Of a DNA stretch of 64,000 nt, positions 4,111 through 12,220 are shown piece after piece. The DNA is from Aurantiochytrium sp. KH105. Lineage: Eukaryota; Sar; Bigyra; Thraustochytrida; Thraustochytriidae. The notes below the pieces were generated by a model. That model did not search any database and had not been told where the DNA came from. It saw only the letters and a list, made by a program, of their open reading frames with translations. A program made the translations under genes and the position numbers. Location of the stretch: NCBI GenBank assembly GCA_003116975.1, contig BGKB01000165.1, positions 93,492-157,491 of the forward strand, given 5' to 3'. Position 1 is the stretch's first letter; the number at the start of each line of letters is the position of its first letter.

Positions 4111-6933
4111 TTACGACGATGATGTTGACACATTGGCGGATGGAGACGGGGACGGAGATGGAGACGGATTTGGAGACGAGGTTCTCGAAGCGTCAGAGAC
4201 TCCATCGCCAGAAGACACGGAGCCGTCCACGGCGATGAGACGGTGCATGCGCTTGATTTTGGCAGCAATGGTTACCTGTGTAGCGCGCTCAAGTTGCTCC
4301 TGGGCCCAAAACGCCGTCGCATGATCGGAAAAGCGCAGCGCGAGGAACCATGTGGACCCCGTGGACTGTTTAGGGGCGCCAAACATGTTGGGAGCTTGCG
4401 CAGGGTTCGAAGCGCCCGTCTCGGTTTCATCGACCCAGGGGAAGAGCTCGGCGGCCTGGGCGAGCTGGTGATCCTTTTCCTGGGAGACTTGGTCTGACTT
4501 TGAAGCCGGGTGACCCGACTGCTGTTGTAGTGGTGCGGCCACTGCAGCAGAGGCGGGCGAATGCGCAGCGCGGAGAGGCGCAAGCTGACGATGTGCCCAG
4601 CCAATGGGCTGGTTTGTGGGCGAGCGCACCGCGAGGTACATGAGCAGAGGATCGTCAGCAGCCATGGCAAAACGCACGTGCTGAAGAGGGGCTACGGTGC
4701 GCACGATGCCCTTGGCAACATGGTGCTCGAGCGCCTTTTCCGGTTGCGCGAGCACGAGGGCGCCACCTGCGAGAACGAGAAAGGCCGGCTGAAGCGCAGC
4801 GAGTGCCCCCTTGGGATTGAGAATGCTGGCCTTGATGTAATCACACTTGCTGAGATCAATGGGGGCGTCCTCCTTGGTGGAAGTGCCCGATGAGCCAACG
4901 AGCGCGAGAAGAGAGTTTGGCTTGTTATGCAGTGTCACCCAGAGAAGACGCAGAATCATAAAGGAGCGGATAGCGGCTTGCGTGACTTCGAGACCGGAAA
5001 ATGGCTGACGTGCATCCAGAGGCATGCTCGGATGCGAAGGGAGAAGGGTTTCTGGGCGCGTCATGAGGCTTTCCACCTTGAGAGGGCCCTGGCAAAGCGA
5101 ATTCCATTCACGCTCAAAGAGGCCAATAAAACGAGCGGCCTCGTGAGTTTCGAACGACTGGAGCTGCGCGCGAAAGCGCACGAGTGACGCCATGTAGGCG
5201 CAATTCAAGAAGTCGAGGTCTCGCGCGTGGTCGAGCTTGGATTCGTACAAGAGGTCAATGGCGAGTTTGGCAACAACGCGCTGGCAAAGCGTGCTGACGG
5301 GAGGATCCTTGACGAGGACCTGTAGCAAGGTGCGGACGAGGGGACGTGGAAAGGGCGCGTCAGGTTGCGGGGCCAGACCCGTCTCGGCGAAGACGGTTGG
5401 GTCGAGATTTGGGTTGTGAATGAGCGCATAGAGGATGCTGGCAGCTGCCAAGCAGTGACGCTCGTTGTCGTGCTCCAAGAAGCGAAGAAGCGCGAGACCA
5501 ACAGGATTTCCCTGATCCTGACTCCTGGGACCACTGGCGGAGGCTGTGGAGGAAGACCCCGCGCAAGGATCCGCGACGTTCTGTTGAGGGCCCGCAGAGC
5601 GGGTGACCGGGTTTGAGGAGCCAAGAATGCTACCGGCGCCGTCGGTTTCGTCGGAAAGATTCGCCTCGTCCTCTTCATTGGGGCCTTGGTCATGATCGAT
5701 ATCATCGTCAGATTTGGACCGTTCGTTTCGCGACGACTTTTCGTCTTCATGCTCGTGATCGTCGTCTTGCAAGAGGAGGGGGGCGGGGATGAACATGGCC
5801 TCCGTGATTCGAGTGACCATTTTCGGGTTTGAGAAGACGAAGAGAGCGTGGGCGAGAAGGAAGAGCGCTAGCAAGGAGCCAGACCCGCCCGTGGCACCCT
5901 GACCGAGGTTGACGTCTTGCTTGGAGAGTCCTGCCTGCTTGAAGTCGGCGTCGTCCATGTCGTCGAGCTCACTAAATGGAAAGGTGGCTGGAAGAAGGCT
6001 TGCCATGAGGAGTGGGAGAAAGAGGTAGGCCATGGCTGCGTTGACGACGGTGTCTTCCATACCGTCAATATTTAGGCTGAGGATATCTTCGAGGTAGAGC
6101 ATGTGATCTTGTTGCTCGGTGAGCGCGACTTCGAGCTTGAGAGGCAAGCGCTTGTCCGGTTCGGGAAGGCCTGCGCGAACGAGCAGGAGATGCAAACGTC
6201 GGCAACGCTGGTGAATGTAGCGGACAACCTTTTCGATATAATGAACTGCAGGACCTTCGAGGAGGAAGCGCAGCATGATGGGATCGTCGACGCGAAAGAC
6301 ATTAAGGGTGATGGTGCGCACGGCTGTGCGGACCATGCCTTCGGGGTGGTCAAAGAACTTTGTGGCTTCTTCAAAAAGGGGAAAGGTGTGAAGGCGGTCG
6401 TTGAAGAAGAACTGGATGGTATTCTTGTTGAGACGAAGGGAGAGAGTCTTGAGGAAAGAGATGTAGTGGCCAAGAATTTCCTCGTTTGTGAAGTCGAACT
6501 TGTGCGATATAAGTCGGTTGACGTGGTTGTTGCTGAGCGTATAGTACAGAGAGATTTCGCTGCGGATGTTTTGCACAAGAATGCTGACGCTCTGTATGAT
6601 TTGCACTTTGAGAGTCGTGCTACAATTGGGCTGGTCAAGGAGGCCGAGGAAGAGGGGGAGCATGTTTTTTTCGCAAAAGTAATCGAAGAGCTGTTCGGTG
6701 TGCTGGTCCCCGTAGACGATGACCTCGGCAATGGCGCGAATGGTTTCGATGAGGACGGCCTGTCCGCTCTGGGTGGCCATGTTGCCACTGCTGAGGTCTT
6801 GATGTTTGTGGAGAGTGGCGTAGAGGTCCTGGAGCCGCTGGACAGTGAACTGCTCGTGGGGTGCTACGTTTTGGTGGTGCTGGCGTTGCTGGTCATTCTG
6901 CTGCTGCGCGCCGTGGCTCCGTGTGAACCACAT
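4111..6933 (-). CDS. CLEC16A: CLEC16A/Ema/GOP-1 family protein (FPL domain)
   Basis: 940 aa, close to the length of animal CLEC16A. Residues about 50-200 carry the FPL domain: an ETIR-AI-E-I-GDQ stretch, EKNMLPLFL, SLYYTLSNN-VN-LI-HKFDF, YISFLKTLSL-LN and HPEGMVRTAVRTITLNV all correspond to conserved blocks of the family. Family members act on endolysosomal and Golgi membranes in autophagy, mitophagy and trafficking (Drosophila Ema, worm GOP-1, plant GFS9/TT9). The middle contains an acidic Asp/Glu/Ser linker (roughly 390-440), and the C-terminus is Ser/Pro-rich and low-complexity, ending in alternating Ser-Pro then Ser. A single exon is supported by the continuous frame. The N-terminal Gln/His-rich 25 residues look lineage-specific. 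The family call is firm; cellular role is taken from relatives. Confidence 0.93.
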   Translation of the reverse strand: MWFTRSHGAQQQNDQQRQHHQNVAPHEQFTVQRLQDLYATLHKHQDLSSGNMATQSGQAVLIETIRAIAEVIVYGDQHTEQLFDYFCEKNMLPLFLGLLDQPNCSTTLKVQIIQSVSILVQNIRSEISLYYTLSNNHVNRLISHKFDFTNEEILGHYISFLKTLSLRLNKNTIQFFFNDRLHTFPLFEEATKFFDHPEGMVRTAVRTITLNVFRVDDPIMLRFLLEGPAVHYIEKVVRYIHQRCRRLHLLLVRAGLPEPDKRLPLKLEVALTEQQDHMLYLEDILSLNIDGMEDTVVNAAMAYLFLPLLMASLLPATFPFSELDDMDDADFKQAGLSKQDVNLGQGATGGSGSLLALFLLAHALFVFSNPKMVTRITEAMFIPAPLLLQDDDHEHEDEKSSRNERSKSDDDIDHDQGPNEEDEANLSDETDGAGSILGSSNPVTRSAGPQQNVADPCAGSSSTASASGPRSQDQGNPVGLALLRFLEHDNERHCLAAASILYALIHNPNLDPTVFAETGLAPQPDAPFPRPLVRTLLQVLVKDPPVSTLCQRVVAKLAIDLLYESKLDHARDLDFLNCAYMASLVRFRAQLQSFETHEAARFIGLFEREWNSLCQGPLKVESLMTRPETLLPSHPSMPLDARQPFSGLEVTQAAIRSFMILRLLWVTLHNKPNSLLALVGSSGTSTKEDAPIDLSKCDYIKASILNPKGALAALQPAFLVLAGGALVLAQPEKALEHHVAKGIVRTVAPLQHVRFAMAADDPLLMYLAVRSPTNQPIGWAHRQLAPLRAAHSPASAAVAAPLQQQSGHPASKSDQVSQEKDHQLAQAAELFPWVDETETGASNPAQAPNMFGAPKQSTGSTWFLALRFSDHATAFWAQEQLERATQVTIAAKIKRMHRLIAVDGSVSSGDGVSDASRTSSPNPSPSPSPSPSANVSTSSS

Positions 6934-7202
6934 GGTGGCCGGGGCGTGCCCTCGGAGCTCGCTGTCTCGCGATTGCCCCTTTTCCTATCCTTGAGCTGCG
7001 TGCGTGCGAGCGACGCACGCAGAGCGCGGAGGCGAGGACGGAGGCGAAGGGCCCGGGCGCCGCCCTCGCGTGCCCTTGCGGCCGCCGTTTCGTTCGCGCC
7101 GCGCCGCGAGCTGCCCTGAGCCGAGCCACGCCGCGCTGCCGGCCGCCTTGTTGATTTGAATGTCGGAGGGCGCATTAACAATGTAACAAGCAGGAGGAGA
7201 GA

Positions 7203-7213
7203 CCTGAGTCAGG
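7203..7213 (-). repeat. Near-perfect palindrome inside an 11-bp direct repeat, distal end of IS607 element
   Basis: CCTGA-G-TCAGG at 7203-7213 is a perfect 5-bp palindrome with one central base. It is flanked by two copies of AGGAGAGACCT (7195-7205 and 7211-7221). It may be a recombinase binding site or the base of a guide RNA; neither is shown. Confidence 0.45.
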
Positions 7214-7257
7214 AGAGACCTCGTTACTACGCTACTATTAAAACCTATAACTCAGCT

Positions 7258-7272
7258 GAAAACCTCGTTTTC
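7258..7272 (-). repeat. Perfect hairpin downstream of tnpB (6-bp stem, 3-nt loop)
   Basis: GAAAAC at 7258-7263 and GTTTTC at 7267-7272 are perfect inverted copies around the loop CTC. The hairpin lies about 100 bp after the tnpB stop, where TnpB/Fanzor guide RNA scaffolds and the distal transposon end are expected. Confidence 0.6.
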
Positions 7273-7314
7273 CTCTTGGGAGACTGGGAGCATCCTTGGT
7301 ATAGATTTCTGCAA

Positions 7315-7349
7315 TGATGGGATCGTAAGAGGACTACGCTTGCCCATCA
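7315..7349 (-). ncRNA. Candidate guide-RNA (omegaRNA/fRNA) hairpin after tnpB
   Basis: TGATGGG at 7315-7321 pairs perfectly with CCCATCA at 7343-7349, leaving a 21-nt loop, 24 bp past the tnpB stop. TnpB and Fanzor proteins use an RNA made from the 3' end of the gene and the adjacent transposon end. Position and pairing fit, but transcription is not shown. Confidence 0.4.
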
Positions 7350-7372
7350 CAGGCCGTAGAGGCAAAGGCTTG

Positions 7373-8656
7373 TCAAAAGACAGAGGCCGCATACCGACCC
7401 ATGTAGGTAGTCATGAATCGGATAAGAATATTGCGCGCACCATTAATATCGCGGTCGGCGACGTAGGAACAGTTCGCGTGTGGGCAGCGAAAGGTCTTGT
7501 CACGACCAATGCCTGTATGGAGACGACCACATTGGCCGCATGTCTTGGTAGTGTAGGCCTCGCCCGTGATGAACACCTTGGTCCATGAGTTAAGTTCCGC
7601 GTGCTCGAGAAGGTGTTGCCTGAATGAGTAGTGACTCCACGTCAACAACTTTCGCGCCGTAGCGGATGTAATCTTCCGCGAGCCACGAAGGACCATTTGA
7701 TTGGTGTCGAAGGTGGGGAGAATAACAACACGATAGTTGTTGCATAGCCAAGAGGCCAACTTCCTGTGCATCTCCTTGACGAGACGTCGAATGCGCACGA
7801 AAATCTTGCGCCATGCTCTATGGCGTCGACGACGTTGCTGCTTGTTGCTGGCGTTCTCAATCTTTGTTTGAAGACGATCCGCATGCCGACATAAGCGATA
7901 AATGCGCTGTATATCAGACTTGCCCCATTCCGTGACGAGACCATCCGCATCAAATGTCGTCATGAAGCACCTCACGCCCGGGTCCATGGCCACCGTCGAG
8001 TGAAAGCCGGTCTCAGGGGCCTGGTCATCGCCCTTGATCTCAACACTCATTGGGATGCACACATAGAAACAGCCGTGAAAGTCTCTGACAATACGAACCG
8101 TCGCTTCCACCTCGGTCGGCAATATGCCCTCTGCCGCGCGTAAAGCTGGTCCAAATAGACCAGCATATTTCCCAGATTTGCGATTCCAGTCACGTGCACG
8201 CACTTCAAAGCTCTGCTGTCTGGCTTTCTTCGTCCTGAACTTGAACTTTGCTTTTTCGCTCACTTCCGTTTCGCCCTTCTTCTTCTTCGCGAAATGAGCT
8301 TGCCGTGCCTTATCCATGTCTCGCACGGCGGAGTCCCTCACCTCGTAGGGAACCTCTTGGAACCAATCATGCGCCTTCGCGTATTGGGATAGCTCGTGGC
8401 GCATCGTCGTCTTGCTCACTTCATGTTCGACATGCCTGAACTTCTCCACCAGTTTGTTGTAGGCGAATCTCATAGTTCCAAACCATCTGAGCAGCTTTTG
8501 TTCTTGCTCCTTTGTCGGATAAACGCGAATTTTGCGGGCCCTAATAGTCTTGGACTCGTCGATCTCGATCTCATCGTCGTCGAGAACAGACGCCTTCCGC
8601 TTGTTCTTGTTTGGTTCGTTCTCTCCCGACGGGACCTTGTCTTCCCGGGACATCAT
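7373..8656 (-). CDS. tnpB: TnpB/Fanzor-like RNA-guided nuclease (RuvC fold, zinc ribbon)
   Basis: 427 aa from the double ATG at 8656/8653. The frame stays open upstream to an ATG at 9295, but no other Met lies between. A short basic stretch NKNKRKAS (about 14-21) could be a nuclear signal. The motif ARKIRVYPTKEQ followed by a W-x(7)-YN helix is the usual OrfB/TnpB N-terminus. RuvC-I is VAMDPG with Asp225. RuvC-II (VILPTFDT) lacks the usual glutamate; a Glu at 366 in GEAYTTKTCGQCG is a candidate replacement, as in IS607 TnpBs and Fanzors. Zinc ligands are C373, C376, C391 and C396; RuvC-III is DRDINGARN with Asp403. Relatives are RNA-guided DNA endonucleases. All key residues are present, so activity is plausible. 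Confidence 0.9.
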   Translation of the reverse strand: MMSREDKVPSGENEPNKNKRKASVLDDDEIEIDESKTIRARKIRVYPTKEQEQKLLRWFGTMRFAYNKLVEKFRHVEHEVSKTTMRHELSQYAKAHDWFQEVPYEVRDSAVRDMDKARQAHFAKKKKGETEVSEKAKFKFRTKKARQQSFEVRARDWNRKSGKYAGLFGPALRAAEGILPTEVEATVRIVRDFHGCFYVCIPMSVEIKGDDQAPETGFHSTVAMDPGVRCFMTTFDADGLVTEWGKSDIQRIYRLCRHADRLQTKIENASNKQQRRRRHRAWRKIFVRIRRLVKEMHRKLASWLCNNYRVVILPTFDTNQMVLRGSRKITSATARKLLTWSHYSFRQHLLEHAELNSWTKVFITGEAYTTKTCGQCGRLHTGIGRDKTFRCPHANCSYVADRDINGARNILIRFMTTYMGRYAASVF

Positions 8657-8756
8657 GGACCACTCATACTGCTGTCGATACGCGGCGATCGCCTGCAGCT
8701 CCCCTTGCGCCCGGGTTACCTTCTTCTCCAGCTTCTCTCGCGTAGCTTCTGCATCA

Positions 8757-9431
8757 TCAGAAGCGGCGAGTGCGTCCAGCTCTTCCAGCGTCTTCTTCAC
8801 CTTCTCCTCTAGCTTCCTCTGCCTCTTCGCGGCGTCTCTTGCGATTCGCAGCTGCTCTACGTCCGTTATGACTTGCCACAAGGAGCGTCGTGATAGCGAG
8901 CAGGTCGTCGGCGTCGGCTGTGCACATGTCGCTGCACTGGCTGTGAACCACGACCCGAGCCCCAAATTTCGCAAAGATCTGCTCCAGGATGGGGTATCCA
9001 ACACGCGCAAGCCTGTCCTTGTGCAAGACGACAACTTCCTTGAGACTTCGGTTGAAAGCGAGGTCCAAAAGGGCTTGCAGGCCTTTCCGACGGAAATTGG
9101 CGGCAGGTCCGGTATCCCAGATGACGCGGTGATCGGGGTATGCTCGACTGAGCTCAGCGACCTGTCGTTCGAGGTCGCCACGCTGCTTCGCGGAAGAGAC
9201 CCGTGCGTATATGACGCACTGTCCGTCTCCGGCGTCGGCACGCGGAAGCCCGACGAGCTCGAAGACATCAGAGACGCAATAGCATCGCTTTCCACCAGGG
9301 AGACGAATCAAGCGGATACGTTTGCTGTCGGCGCTTTTACGTAAAAAGTCTTGCGACACACCCAGACGTTCCACGAAGTATTTACCGGACCTGAAGACGG
9401 GTTCTGCCCGACCCCCACTCACGTCAGACAT
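8757..9431 (-). CDS. tnpA: IS607-family serine recombinase (TnpA)
   Basis: 224 aa, normal for IS607 TnpA. Residues about 15-62 form a MerR-like helix-turn-helix (RLGVS...RLPGGKR). The catalytic domain begins at CVIYARVSS, with Ser79 as the expected nucleophile and Arg77 beside it. DLERQ (87-91), FRRKGL (113-118) and KDRLARVG (138-145) are the other signature blocks; the conserved core ends near HNGRR (188-192). The usual D-GSG loop reads DTGPA. The last 30 residues are an Arg/Glu/Gly tail that overlaps a convincing coiled coil in the tnpB frame. The enzyme cuts and joins DNA at element ends without target duplication. No interrupting stop or missing catalytic residue is seen, so the copy looks intact and fairly recent. 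Confidence 0.92.
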   Translation of the reverse strand: MSDVSGGRAEPVFRSGKYFVERLGVSQDFLRKSADSKRIRLIRLPGGKRCYCVSDVFELVGLPRADAGDGQCVIYARVSSAKQRGDLERQVAELSRAYPDHRVIWDTGPAANFRRKGLQALLDLAFNRSLKEVVVLHKDRLARVGYPILEQIFAKFGARVVVHSQCSDMCTADADDLLAITTLLVASHNGRRAAANRKRRREEAEEARGEGEEDAGRAGRTRRF

Positions 9432-9462
9432 GCGTGGGTGAGGTCTCGTTTCGGTTTTGCTG

Positions 9463-9476
9463 CCCGACCTTTCGGG
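9463..9476 (-). repeat. Short hairpin upstream of tnpA
   Basis: CCCGA at 9463-9467 and TCGGG at 9472-9476 pair around CCTT, about 30 bp before the tnpA start. It may be part of the proximal transposon end. Confidence 0.3.
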
Positions 9477-9606
9477 TTTGCTGGATCACCAAACAGCGTA
9501 GACGATCCGAGCTTCTGGAAGGAATACTCGAATCAATACAATCCGCGCTAATATTGTATATAGCTTTGTTCACCAATGATCGTTTGATTAGTATATTCGT
9601 TCCTAC

Positions 9607-9660
9607 CCTAACGACCTAACGACCGTCGTTAGTGAATAGGTTTGCAAAGCTAACGTTAAC
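9607..9660 (-). repeat. CTAACGA direct and inverted repeats, proximal end of IS607 element
   Basis: CTAACGA occurs at 9608-9614 and 9616-9622, and its inverted copy TCGTTAG at 9626-9632, only three bases from the second. A further CTAACG starts near 9650 inside a small palindrome. IS607 recombinases bind several short sites at each end, so these are candidate TnpA sites. The outer boundary is not defined. Confidence 0.4.
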
Positions 9661-10395
9661 AAAACTATTTTCTAACCTATCGGCATGGCAATGCCGACGA
9701 CGGGGATAAAAACGATGCGAGAGCTAGAAGACACGACTCGGGAGGTGGGGTCGAACGGAATAGCAGCAGCGGCAGCACATGCCATGGATGATAAATTGTA
9801 TCAGCTTTTTTTTATTTATTTAGTATAGTAGTCAGGTATCATCGAAGTACGAGGGGAGTACGTCGTCGTATTGTCAAAAGATTGTGCGTACGTACAGAGA
9901 GGCAAGGAAGGAAGGAAGGAAGGAACGAGGCAGCATGCCAAATGACGGTGTGGAACGAAGAGCATTTGCCGTCAGGGATTGTTGTCCAAATCCTCACCTT
10001 TGCGAAAAGGATGTTGTTCGTGGCGGCGACATGAGCGCGTTGCCACGAGGGGTTATATTATCCGGAGTGGGTGTTGAAGGCCACTATCATAGTCAAAACA
10101 GCGGGTTTAGCGGCGACCACCCGGAATGTCGGAAAAGACAAAGTCCTCTTGCTCGCTCCCACATTGTAGAGGGAAGCTTTATAAATTTGACAAGGAGAAG
10201 GAGGAAGAGGGGAAGCACTTGATAATGCGCATGAAGACAAAGTCAGTGAGTCTTCTCTCTCCTCTCCTCTCCTCTTGTCTCATCTCGTCATGCGTCAAAA
10301 TGGACGTCCCCTTCAGTTGTCTTTGGTCTCTCACCTCCTGTTGAAGGCAATGCAGACATAAACACGCACACAGGGTTGATCAGGCGGAGAATACA
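9661..10395. other. Gap between IS607 element and AP2 gene
   Basis: This 735-bp gap lies downstream of the AP2 gene on the minus strand. It contains a T-rich run near 9807-9825, GGAA repeats near 9905-9925 and CT-rich sequence near 10250-10280. No coding frame here resembles a protein. Confidence 0.5.
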
Positions 10396-11478
10396 TTACA
10401 CGGCAACGGCAGTGAAGCCGCTCGGAGCTTCGTTGGGAAAGTTGAGGCAGGCACGCTTCTCGTGGTACTGGATGGCAGCTTTGTCATAAGCACGTGCAGC
10501 CGACAGCTCATCCTTGAAGCGCCCGAGGTAAATGACCTTGGGTCCCACACGAATGCGCGACTGGAAACGACCGTCCTTGCTGCAGCGCGAGACGCCACGG
10601 TATTGGGAAGACTGCTCGCGACTGCGCTGGGATGCCTTTTTGGCGGCCTTGGAGGTCGGCGAGGGGGCCACGGACCTGGGCGAAGGGGTTGCCTTGCGCG
10701 TGGCCTTGTGCATGCGCTTCAACTTTTTGGTTTCGGGCGCGGTGAGGCTCGTTGAGGCCGGGCGCGAGAGGGACGCCGAGGCCTTACGGGACTTGGTCTT
10801 GGCAGGCACCGTGGAGTTGCGGCGCGCCGAAGGGGCGGTGGCCGAGATGTTGGCGGAGGGAAGACCTTCGCTGAGATTGGCCGAGGGCAGTTGCGCAGCA
10901 CGCGGAAGAAAGTTTGGCATCAACAGTTGCGAAGCGAAGAGCACGGAGCTCTTACGCCGACGCGAAGCGGGGCCCTGTGAGGCACCGCCGTTCGCGGTGT
11001 TGGACTCTGTTCCGAGGGCCAAATGTCCCCAATCCGTGTCGAGAGGGCCGGGAAAGTCTGCGTTCAACTCCAAGCCGGCAAGCCAGTTGTTGGCGGGGTC
11101 CTCATATCCCGTGACCTGGAGAGAGGCTGCGCTGGGGTTGAAGATTTGACCAAAGGACATGGGCGAGAAACCGGCAGCGGTGGGAGCAAAGTGATGCTGG
11201 TTGTTGAAGTTGATGTGGGTGGTGATTGCGTTCGTCGTGCTGATTGGGGCAAAACCTGCAGCAGCGTTAAAGAAGGCCTCCTGGGTCGGGGTGTGATGGG
11301 CCGGGTCCACGTCGACGATGGGGTTGGCGTCTCCGAGTTCTTCGTTCGTGACATTCCAGAAGGCGGGGCCGTTGTCCACGCCGGCTTCGATAAAGCCCAT
11401 GTCCATGCTTTCGGGCGTGGGCGGGTGTTCCGTGGCCATGGAGGCCTTGCTCGAGAACTCAAAGGTGTCCTTCGTCAT
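10396..11478 (-). CDS. AP2/ERF-domain transcription factor
   Basis: 360 aa from the ATG at 11478 (MTKDTFEF). The frame continues upstream to 11730, but that part is Arg-rich and reads through a CGCACG repeat. The single AP2 domain lies at the C-terminus (about 294-350): YRGVSRCSKDGRFQSRI, then YLGRFKDELSAARAYDKAAI and a final LNFP. These match the three-strand plus helix AP2 fold, with YRG and the AARAYD helix. It is preceded by a basic Ser/Lys/Arg/Pro-rich stretch likely to act in nuclear import or DNA contact. The N-terminal 200 residues are Asn/Ala/Pro/Thr-rich and acidic in places, as in activation regions. Targets are unknown. A 6.8-kb non-coding stretch separates it from the divergent DHHC gene. 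Confidence 0.88.
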   Translation of the reverse strand: MTKDTFEFSSKASMATEHPPTPESMDMGFIEAGVDNGPAFWNVTNEELGDANPIVDVDPAHHTPTQEAFFNAAAGFAPISTTNAITTHINFNNQHHFAPTAAGFSPMSFGQIFNPSAASLQVTGYEDPANNWLAGLELNADFPGPLDTDWGHLALGTESNTANGGASQGPASRRRKSSVLFASQLLMPNFLPRAAQLPSANLSEGLPSANISATAPSARRNSTVPAKTKSRKASASLSRPASTSLTAPETKKLKRMHKATRKATPSPRSVAPSPTSKAAKKASQRSREQSSQYRGVSRCSKDGRFQSRIRVGPKVIYLGRFKDELSAARAYDKAAIQYHEKRACLNFPNEAPSGFTAVAV

Positions 11479-12220
11479 GGTGCTCGACGAGAAGGAATAG
11501 GCTTCTGCGTGGCTCTCCAGCAGATTATCCTTGTCGAGGCTTAAGCGCTCGGCGCTTTCACTCAAGCAAGCACGCACGCACGCACGCACGTCCGCACGCA
11601 CGTACACGAATAGACGTGAGCGGCTGAATGAAACTCGCTGCCTTGAAGGTCGGCCGCGGCGAGGTGTATACGAGGTCTGCCCGGCGCTGTCCGCACGTGC
11701 CGCCCTCTGCCCCCTGGCTCCCCTCTGCAAATCCTTCCCGCAGGCCTCTGCCCCTCGATCTTTCCAGTGGCGCCCGTCCCCGCTGCGGGTCCGAGCCGTC
11801 AGGACCCCAAGTCCCTACCCTCCACTTCCCTCTGCGCGATCCCCAGAGGCACGCATTTCTAGTGGCGCAAAGAGGACAGCCATCTGCACGCGCTCCGCCT
11901 TTATTCTGTCTCATCGGGACGGTCAACGCTCGTCCCTGCTGCCTCGTCGGCGTTGCGCGGCGGAGGAGGTGATTTTTCATATTTTCATTCCTCCCTCACT
12001 TTTCCTTGGATTTTTTTCTTTTCTTTTCTTCAATTTCTTTTTCTTTTCTTTTCTTACTTTTCTTTCTTTTTTTTCTTTTTTTTCTGGCTCGGATCGGCGG
12101 CACGCGCGTGCAGCTGCAGGACGCAGTGCGCCGCTCTGCCCGGCCATGGCGGCCACGCACGCCCCGTCTGCGCCGTCGCTCGTGCCTGGCTTCACATCAG
12201 CCGCAAGCCACATGCCACTG

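Follow-up and report, generated by a model that had tools for sequence, protein, structure and literature searches.

The 64,000-nt stretch of Aurantiochytrium sp. KH105 DNA analyzed here (contig BGKB01000165.1, positions 93,492–157,491; this whole stretch is the window) harbors a complete IS607-type transposon, in which the gene of the serine recombinase TnpA appears to be nested within an N-terminally extended gene of a Fanzor2-type nuclease. Our reading, to which we assign a probability of about 0.8, is that this is a recently active eukaryotic IS607-Fanzor2 transposon and that the nuclease frame running across tnpA is under selection and presumably translated. The element, a member of the family termed A, occupies positions 7230–9683 of the minus strand (2,454 bp), and its ends are common to three copies with unrelated flanks. 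tnpA (8757–9431, minus strand) encodes 224 aa, and the extended Fanzor2 frame (7373–9268, minus strand), which starts at the element's third ATG, is 631 codons long and overlaps tnpA in the +1 frame at 9268–8757; the case for this extension is made at the level of the class. The long overlap of the tnpA and tnpB frames is not mentioned in an earlier annotation of this DNA (the original prediction). Contig labels such as C9, C27, C48 and C165 (the window contig) refer to the 76-Mb, 367-contig assembly, and L-numbers are labels of loci collected for comparison.

The tnpB frame was first seen to be open through nearly all of tnpA while relatives were gathered by a DNA pattern for the displaced-glutamate motif, which returned 52 stretches in one scan and at least 120 in another. 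This motif lies at the far end of tnpB, so the collection was not selected for overlap. A DPG motif together with a displaced glutamate marks the Fanzors and their cyanobacterial relatives (PMC10711439). For the nesting test, 59 elements with both genes were compared, and an element was scored as nested when at least 0.6 of tnpA lies inside the open tnpB frame. The class with DPG and a displaced glutamate, from cyanobacteria, phages and KH105, reaches this threshold in 30 of 31 elements (median 0.99), while none of the 28 other IS607 elements does (median 0.02, largest 0.38; 25 lack the displaced-glutamate motif). The class comprises 29 DPG elements, including families A, B and C of KH105, and two with DCG (L081 and L063) that were placed in it by hand on their tree position. 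Twenty stretches of Ktedonobacter sp. SOSP1-85, the genome of L136, were taken as controls; this genome contains 54 matches to the IS607 transposase model, the weaker ones below the cut-off. Every nested row is in the +1 frame, families A, B and C likewise. In the exception, L179, the +1 frame is still open through tnpA and beyond the start of the tnpB core, which looks like the outcome of a later frameshift. No nesting is seen in the elements that have a displaced glutamate and no DPG (L043, L058 and L046) or in those of the control class that have DPG and no displaced glutamate (L217, L260, L262, L265 and L266). Fifteen of the 71 tnpA/tnpB rows were left out for a tnpA match below 120 aa or a tnpB core below 300 aa; nine of them are fully or nearly fully nested (L083, L163, L067 twice, L160, L128 twice, L194 and L168), and six are not (L271, L273, L204, a second piece of L163, L219 and L259). 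Nested displaced-glutamate elements also occur in viral contigs that carry phage-type genes, namely a tail protein (L085), a terminase (L071) and a DnaB-like helicase (L081), and the nested element L207 is in a Microcoleus phage record, which indicates that the lineage is not limited to cyanobacterial chromosomes.

Across the nested class, the open frame is not what codon usage would leave by chance. Synonymous codons were shuffled within tnpA, keeping the protein and its codon use, in 1000 joint shuffles over clusters of less than 80% identity. Across 22 clusters of the nested class, 16 stops are observed in the +1 frame against 84.6 expected (lowest shuffle 65), and the +2 frame contains 267 against 264.2 expected. 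For the other IS607 elements (18 clusters), the +1 frame contains 198 stops against 215.7 expected, with a lowest shuffle of 195. A separate earlier run on 27 genes gave 15 +1 stops against 88.6 expected, and family C taken alone has 0 against 3.49 expected (P 0.004). The third base of each tnpA codon is the second base of the +1 codon, and silent changes in tnpA therefore alter the other peptide. At four-fold sites, divergence in tnpA is below that in the tnpB core for 105 of 109 nested pairs (medians 0.49 and 0.69), a count inflated by near-duplicate loci that becomes 48 of 50 when seven loci are dropped. The control pairs show this direction in 9 of 20 (medians 0.59 and 0.52), and in 2 of 13 when restricted to a tnpB identity below 0.95. 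Protein identity does not explain the lower divergence of tnpA, as judged from two pairs: L203 and L151 are 0.92 alike in both proteins and differ at 5 of 81 four-fold sites in tnpA and 47 of 113 in tnpB, and families A and B (protein identities 0.68 and 0.73) differ at 28 of 69 and 77 of 111, respectively. Two family C copies go in the opposite direction (tnpA 11/82, tnpB 10/139). In family C, eight copies that align over 201 or more of 205 codons (L011, L013, L014, L022, L025, L026, L027 and L028) contain nine stops in the tnpA frame and one in the overlapping part of the tnpB frame, a hint that the nuclease frame is kept longer than the tnpA frame; the copies share ancestry, however, and the partial copy L023 contains seven and four. 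Taken together, stop counts and synonymous divergence indicate selection on the overlapping +1 frame.

Several observations weigh against a translated extension. In the open part of the window copy taken by itself, no +1 stop occurs where 1.12 are expected, a difference that is not significant (P 0.28); the frame is open only from tnpA codon 42 onward, and the first ATG of the Fanzor2 frame lies 163 nt after that of tnpA. Three broken copies from cyanobacteria (L271, L273 and L204), excluded above for their short cores, are not nested as they stand, with 0, 1 and 0 stops in the +1 frame of tnpA. Two AlphaFold models, one of the window protein (the input starts one codon ahead of the ATG) and one of a cyanobacterial protein, show the tnpA-overlapping part as mostly disordered, and none of the four such parts that were tested has a Pfam match, so that a function is not visible. 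Moreover, the nuclease could do without the extension if it started near the core: tandem ATGs at 8656/8653 would give a short form of 427 aa (7373–8656, minus strand). This last point, together with the disorder and the lack of a domain, would favor an ordinary IS607-Fanzor2 element, with translation of the nuclease starting solely at the short-form ATGs near the end of tnpA and the +1 frame being open for an RNA or DNA signal inside tnpA or through codon choice. We regard this as unlikely, because the stop depletion is confined to a single frame and a single lineage, that with DPG, and the ordinary IS607 elements tested do not show it, and because eight elements (L092, L104, L095 and L151, which are cyanobacterial, and L038, L055, L081 and L071) have no ATG within 90 codons before the core, although TTG or GTG codons are present 20–70 codons upstream of it.

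The arrangement of the starts suits leaky scanning. The first ATG of the window element is that of tnpA, whose context is poor (−3 C, +4 T). The second leads into a frame of five codons, and the third, likewise poorly placed, opens the Fanzor2 frame. In the family C copy on C21, the first four ATGs alternate between the two frames (positions 51, 67, 198 and 205), and in 11 of 39 rows, five of them near-identical, a tnpB-frame ATG follows a tnpA-frame ATG by 7 or 10 nt. The latter spacing also speaks against another explanation, a recombinase-nuclease fusion of TnpA and TnpB produced by +1 ribosomal frameshifting. The fixed +1 relation of the two frames would fit such a fusion, but slippage needs the second frame to be open only after the slip site, whereas in many elements it is open to the tnpA start or before it; we consider this explanation improbable. 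A brief look for an intron that would remove tnpA identified one GTRAGT at element position 264.

We thus return to the nested arrangement. In the pro-Fanzor/Fanzor2 lineage, tnpA would lie almost wholly inside an extended tnpB/Fanzor2 gene, and the extended +1 frame would be translated; in a eukaryote, the simplest route would be leaky scanning beyond the tnpA ATG, which is poorly placed. With less assurance, we lean towards a broader view: in the Fanzor-ancestral lineage, the transposase gene would be fully nested in a functional second frame that forms a long N-terminal arm of the nuclease, the pair would have passed intact from cyanobacteria and phages to eukaryotes, and leaky scanning could yield both proteins from one mRNA, which may help to explain why this TnpB lineage could work in eukaryotes. 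If translated, the overlap would represent a rare case in which two enzymes are overprinted and the arrangement is conserved in bacteria as well as eukaryotes, an unusual packing of two proteins. Natural pro-Fanzors and Fanzor2s of the nested kind would then be longer than the conserved core, and there would be a concrete answer to how a two-gene bacterial element is expressed from one eukaryotic transcript.

TnpA matches NF033518 (transpos_IS607, NCBIfam) at residues 19–196 with 118.6 bits (cut-off 110) and PF00239 with 54.3 bits (cut-off 23.3), and five solved relatives of it include catalytic domains of the IS607 family. The frame contains no internal stop, and its YARVSS motif (9192–9209, minus strand) contains what we take to be the catalytic serine, in agreement with the original prediction; the MerR-like helix-turn-helix also proposed there is not matched by Pfam on its own, and the region falls within the NF033518 match. 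A serine recombinase rather than a Y1 transposase places the element outside IS200/IS605. The TnpB frame is likewise free of internal stops, as originally predicted along with its RuvC and zinc-ribbon residues, and has matches to models of TnpB/Cas12f type: it matches PF07282 (50.7 bits) and PF12323, both over the cut-off, and guided_TnpB of NCBIfam with 142.9 bits (cut-off 100), while PF01385 falls below its cut-off (28.3 against 30.5 bits). The Fanzor2 core spans the start of HTH_OrfB through RuvC and the zinc ribbon (7376–8545, minus strand). On the same strand, it contains the RuvC-I motif AMDPGV with the DPG signature (7973–7990), GEAYTTKTC with the displaced, or alternative, RuvC-II glutamate ahead of the zinc ribbon (7538–7564), and the RuvC-III motif ADRDINGARN (7430–7459); the C4 zinc ribbon and RD motif are present. 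The DPG motif and the displaced glutamate next to the zinc ribbon are found in families A, B and C alike. The best solved relative of the nuclease, both by sequence and by predicted fold (Foldseek), is the mimivirus Fanzor2 9b0l, and the Guillardia theta Fanzor 9cer, which we take to be a Fanzor1, ranks 35 among the fold matches. Fanzor1 belongs to eukaryotic transposons of non-IS607 type, and here an IS607 TnpA is in the same element. By its sequence, the nuclease is of Fanzor2 type, and its family and residues make RNA-guided DNA cutting probable.

Comparison of copies defines the element and its mobility. Its minus-strand termini read 5' CCGATAGG... at 9683 and ...AATAGTAGCG 3' at 7230, where the right end reads AGTAGCG; the boundaries originally predicted, 7190–9660, are hereby replaced. 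A DNA search identified two further complete family A copies, on C266 and C242. Their identity to the window copy is 99.4% and 98.7%, with exactly the same ends in unrelated flanks; the exact right-end 15-mer occurs three times in the genome, in these three complete copies only. The left junction dinucleotides of the three are TG, TG and CG, and the right end is CG in all. IS607 itself has the same dinucleotide (GG) at both junctions and in the target, which is the family criterion applied. Neither terminal inverted repeats nor a target-site duplication were seen when the ends of the three copies were compared by eye and one filled/empty pair and one poorer pair were inspected. The TG directly outside the left end of the window copy (9684–9685, minus strand) may be a target core or the remnant of a target-adjacent motif (TAM).

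An empty relative of the C242 site was obtained by searching with the joined flanks of seven copies (three of family A and four of family C) as one query. The C242 flanks match C48 continuously without the element, at 92% over 399 columns. The empty site on C48 reads GGTCAACG followed directly by GATGACC, and C242 reads GGTCAACG-element-AGATGACC, with one base different at the join; C48 may be a paralogue rather than an allele. By this comparison, the element inserts without duplicating its target, as IS607 does (PMC6188088). A second copy of the intergenic DNA that surrounds the window element (C9:695200–696300, L233) also lacks the element and matches less cleanly, and the four family C comparisons yielded no clean junction. 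The near-identical copies in unrelated flanks and the filled/empty relative show that the element was recently mobile, which bears out the earlier suggestion to look for other copies and empty sites. A fourth family A copy, on C27, is broken (L034/L238, C27:514737–519613): later insertions disrupt it, and one junction carries an inverted repeat beginning GGGTAAAG, which resembles the ends of another DNA transposon. The element could still be a dead relic that inserted recently and is now unexpressed or inactive, as the many decayed and deleted copies of family C would suggest; with both window frames intact and the three copies 98–99% identical, we consider this rather unlikely.

The same data locate the element in the eukaryotic genome. 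Zinc-ribbon matches number 25 on 23 contigs, and these, the three near-identical copies in different flanks and the empty relative of one site make contamination very unlikely. The prokaryotic ancestry of the element would be compatible with bacterial contamination or a chimeric assembly, an explanation to which we give almost no weight given, in addition, the presence of three families and of neighbor genes that are eukaryotic in type. No close prokaryotic relative was found among the sequences searched: the best phage and plasmid hits are at 33% and 32% identity, the collected relatives are at 28–32%, and for genome contigs the statement covers the matches listed in a pattern-based scan. In peptide-pattern scans of viral contigs, based on the TnpB alignment and on TnpA, none of 107 and none of 38 pattern stretches, respectively, was confirmed as a relative, and a DPG pattern scan of the window was uninformative. 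The original prediction of a eukaryotic element that pairs an intact recombinase with an intact nuclease is supported: the recombinase is of IS607 type, the nuclease is of Fanzor2 type, and the genome in which they reside is eukaryotic.

Two other families are present in the assembly. Family B (L009 and L010, on C201 and C200) consists of two copies that are 98% alike in different flanks and about 70% alike to family A; its TnpA match begins at residue 27 with a stop in each copy, and the N-terminus is damaged. Family C includes 16 compared copies (L011–L019 and L022–L028) and one at C9:472337, about 89–99% alike. Several of these are internally deleted with the right end kept, like non-autonomous derivatives, and many are decayed. 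L013 and L027 have about 2.5 kb in common at 91%, including the left flank, and were perhaps duplicated with their locus rather than by transposition; near L013 and L018, long arrays match each other at offsets of about 305 bases, as in a satellite-like repeat. The family A and C nucleases are 25% identical. In a quick tree of 56 rows, in which several branches are long (the tool warns of this) and mimivirus L79 is the sole known Fanzor2, families A and B join cyanobacterial DPG proteins in a set of 30 (starred, 95), and family C is placed beside L79 with a support of 82 on long branches. Their low identity and separate positions make two separate acquisitions of A/B and C likely, but not proven. 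A tree nesting both proteins within one bacterial strain, proposed earlier as the sign of a contaminant, was not obtained: A/B and C are separate, and A/B lie by cyanobacterial proteins at about 30% identity.

A guide RNA encoded at the right end is a reasonable inference. The putative scaffold of a right-end element RNA (reRNA) spans 7230–7359 (minus strand), and the flank below 7230 would supply the guide. Over their last 130 nt, families A and B have 13 predicted pairs in common, including a terminal helix, which closes two bases from the right end, and one stem; three of the pairs are changed on both sides. Counting against the scaffold, the sequences folded singly do not outdo their shuffles (z −0.89 for A, −0.14 for B and 0.93 for C), and Rfam finds nothing in the window element and only a CRISPR repeat in eight related loci. 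In the proposed cycle, TnpA would excise and insert the double-stranded element after a YG dinucleotide. The three copies do show insertion after YG without duplication, and the recombination chemistry is presumed. The right-end RNA would guide Fanzor2 with the adjoining host sequence as the guide, and cutting of the empty site, to judge from related systems, would help to keep or spread the element.

The element is flanked by a CLEC16A-like host gene (4111–6933, minus strand) and an AP2-like host gene (10396–11730, minus strand). Of these two neighbors, both named in the original prediction, the former is confirmed by matches to PF09758 and PF19439, while the latter matches PF00847 only below the cut-off (24.5 against 33.3 bits).

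The novelty implied by the original prediction applies only in part. The element itself stands, but Bao and Jurka described Fanzor2 in IS607-type elements of eukaryotes and viruses (PMC3627910; see also PMC10711439), and Fanzor1 is carried by other transposon types (PMC3627910, PMC10711439). Eukaryotic IS607-Fanzor2 is thus already known as a type, and the gene layout is the part that we did not find described. IS607 genes often overlap (PMC6188088), and both overlapping and separate gene types are reported (PMC9956272). The words "overlap" and "nested" are absent from the main text of PMC3627910, as are these and "frame" from that of PMC10711439; in the parts seen of PMC10432273, PMC11061315 and PMC3542288, "overlap" is applied to other things. 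In the literature on IS607, Fanzor and TnpB overlap, subscription papers and supplements aside and with some sources seen in part, we found no description of full tnpA nesting, which may nevertheless be in print. With its defined ends, empty relative site and candidate scaffold for a guide RNA, this compact and apparently intact eukaryotic IS607-Fanzor2 unit makes transposition and programmable cutting directly testable.

Compared with known systems, Fanzor1 proteins belong to the same RNA-guided RuvC nuclease lineage, but the best fold match here is a Fanzor2 instead. Other IS607 elements (Ktedonobacter, plasmid and viral-contig copies) are alike in TnpA family and gene order, yet in the 28 elements compared the open tnpB frame covers a median of 2% of the tnpA match. 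The cyanobacterial pro-Fanzor IS607 elements (PMC10711439) share the DPG motif, the displaced glutamate and the +1 nesting of tnpA in tnpB, the nesting being found here; the proteins are about 30% identical, and several of the cyanobacterial elements have near-coincident ATGs, unlike the window copy. The described Fanzor2 IS607 elements, ACa-1 and ACa-2 of Acanthamoeba and ISvMimi of mimivirus (PMC3627910), are alike in having an IS607 recombinase and a Fanzor2, no terminal inverted repeats and no target duplication. Relative to the elements of that report, as far as seen, KH105 adds a new host, in whose genome three families, near-identical copies and an empty relative site occur.

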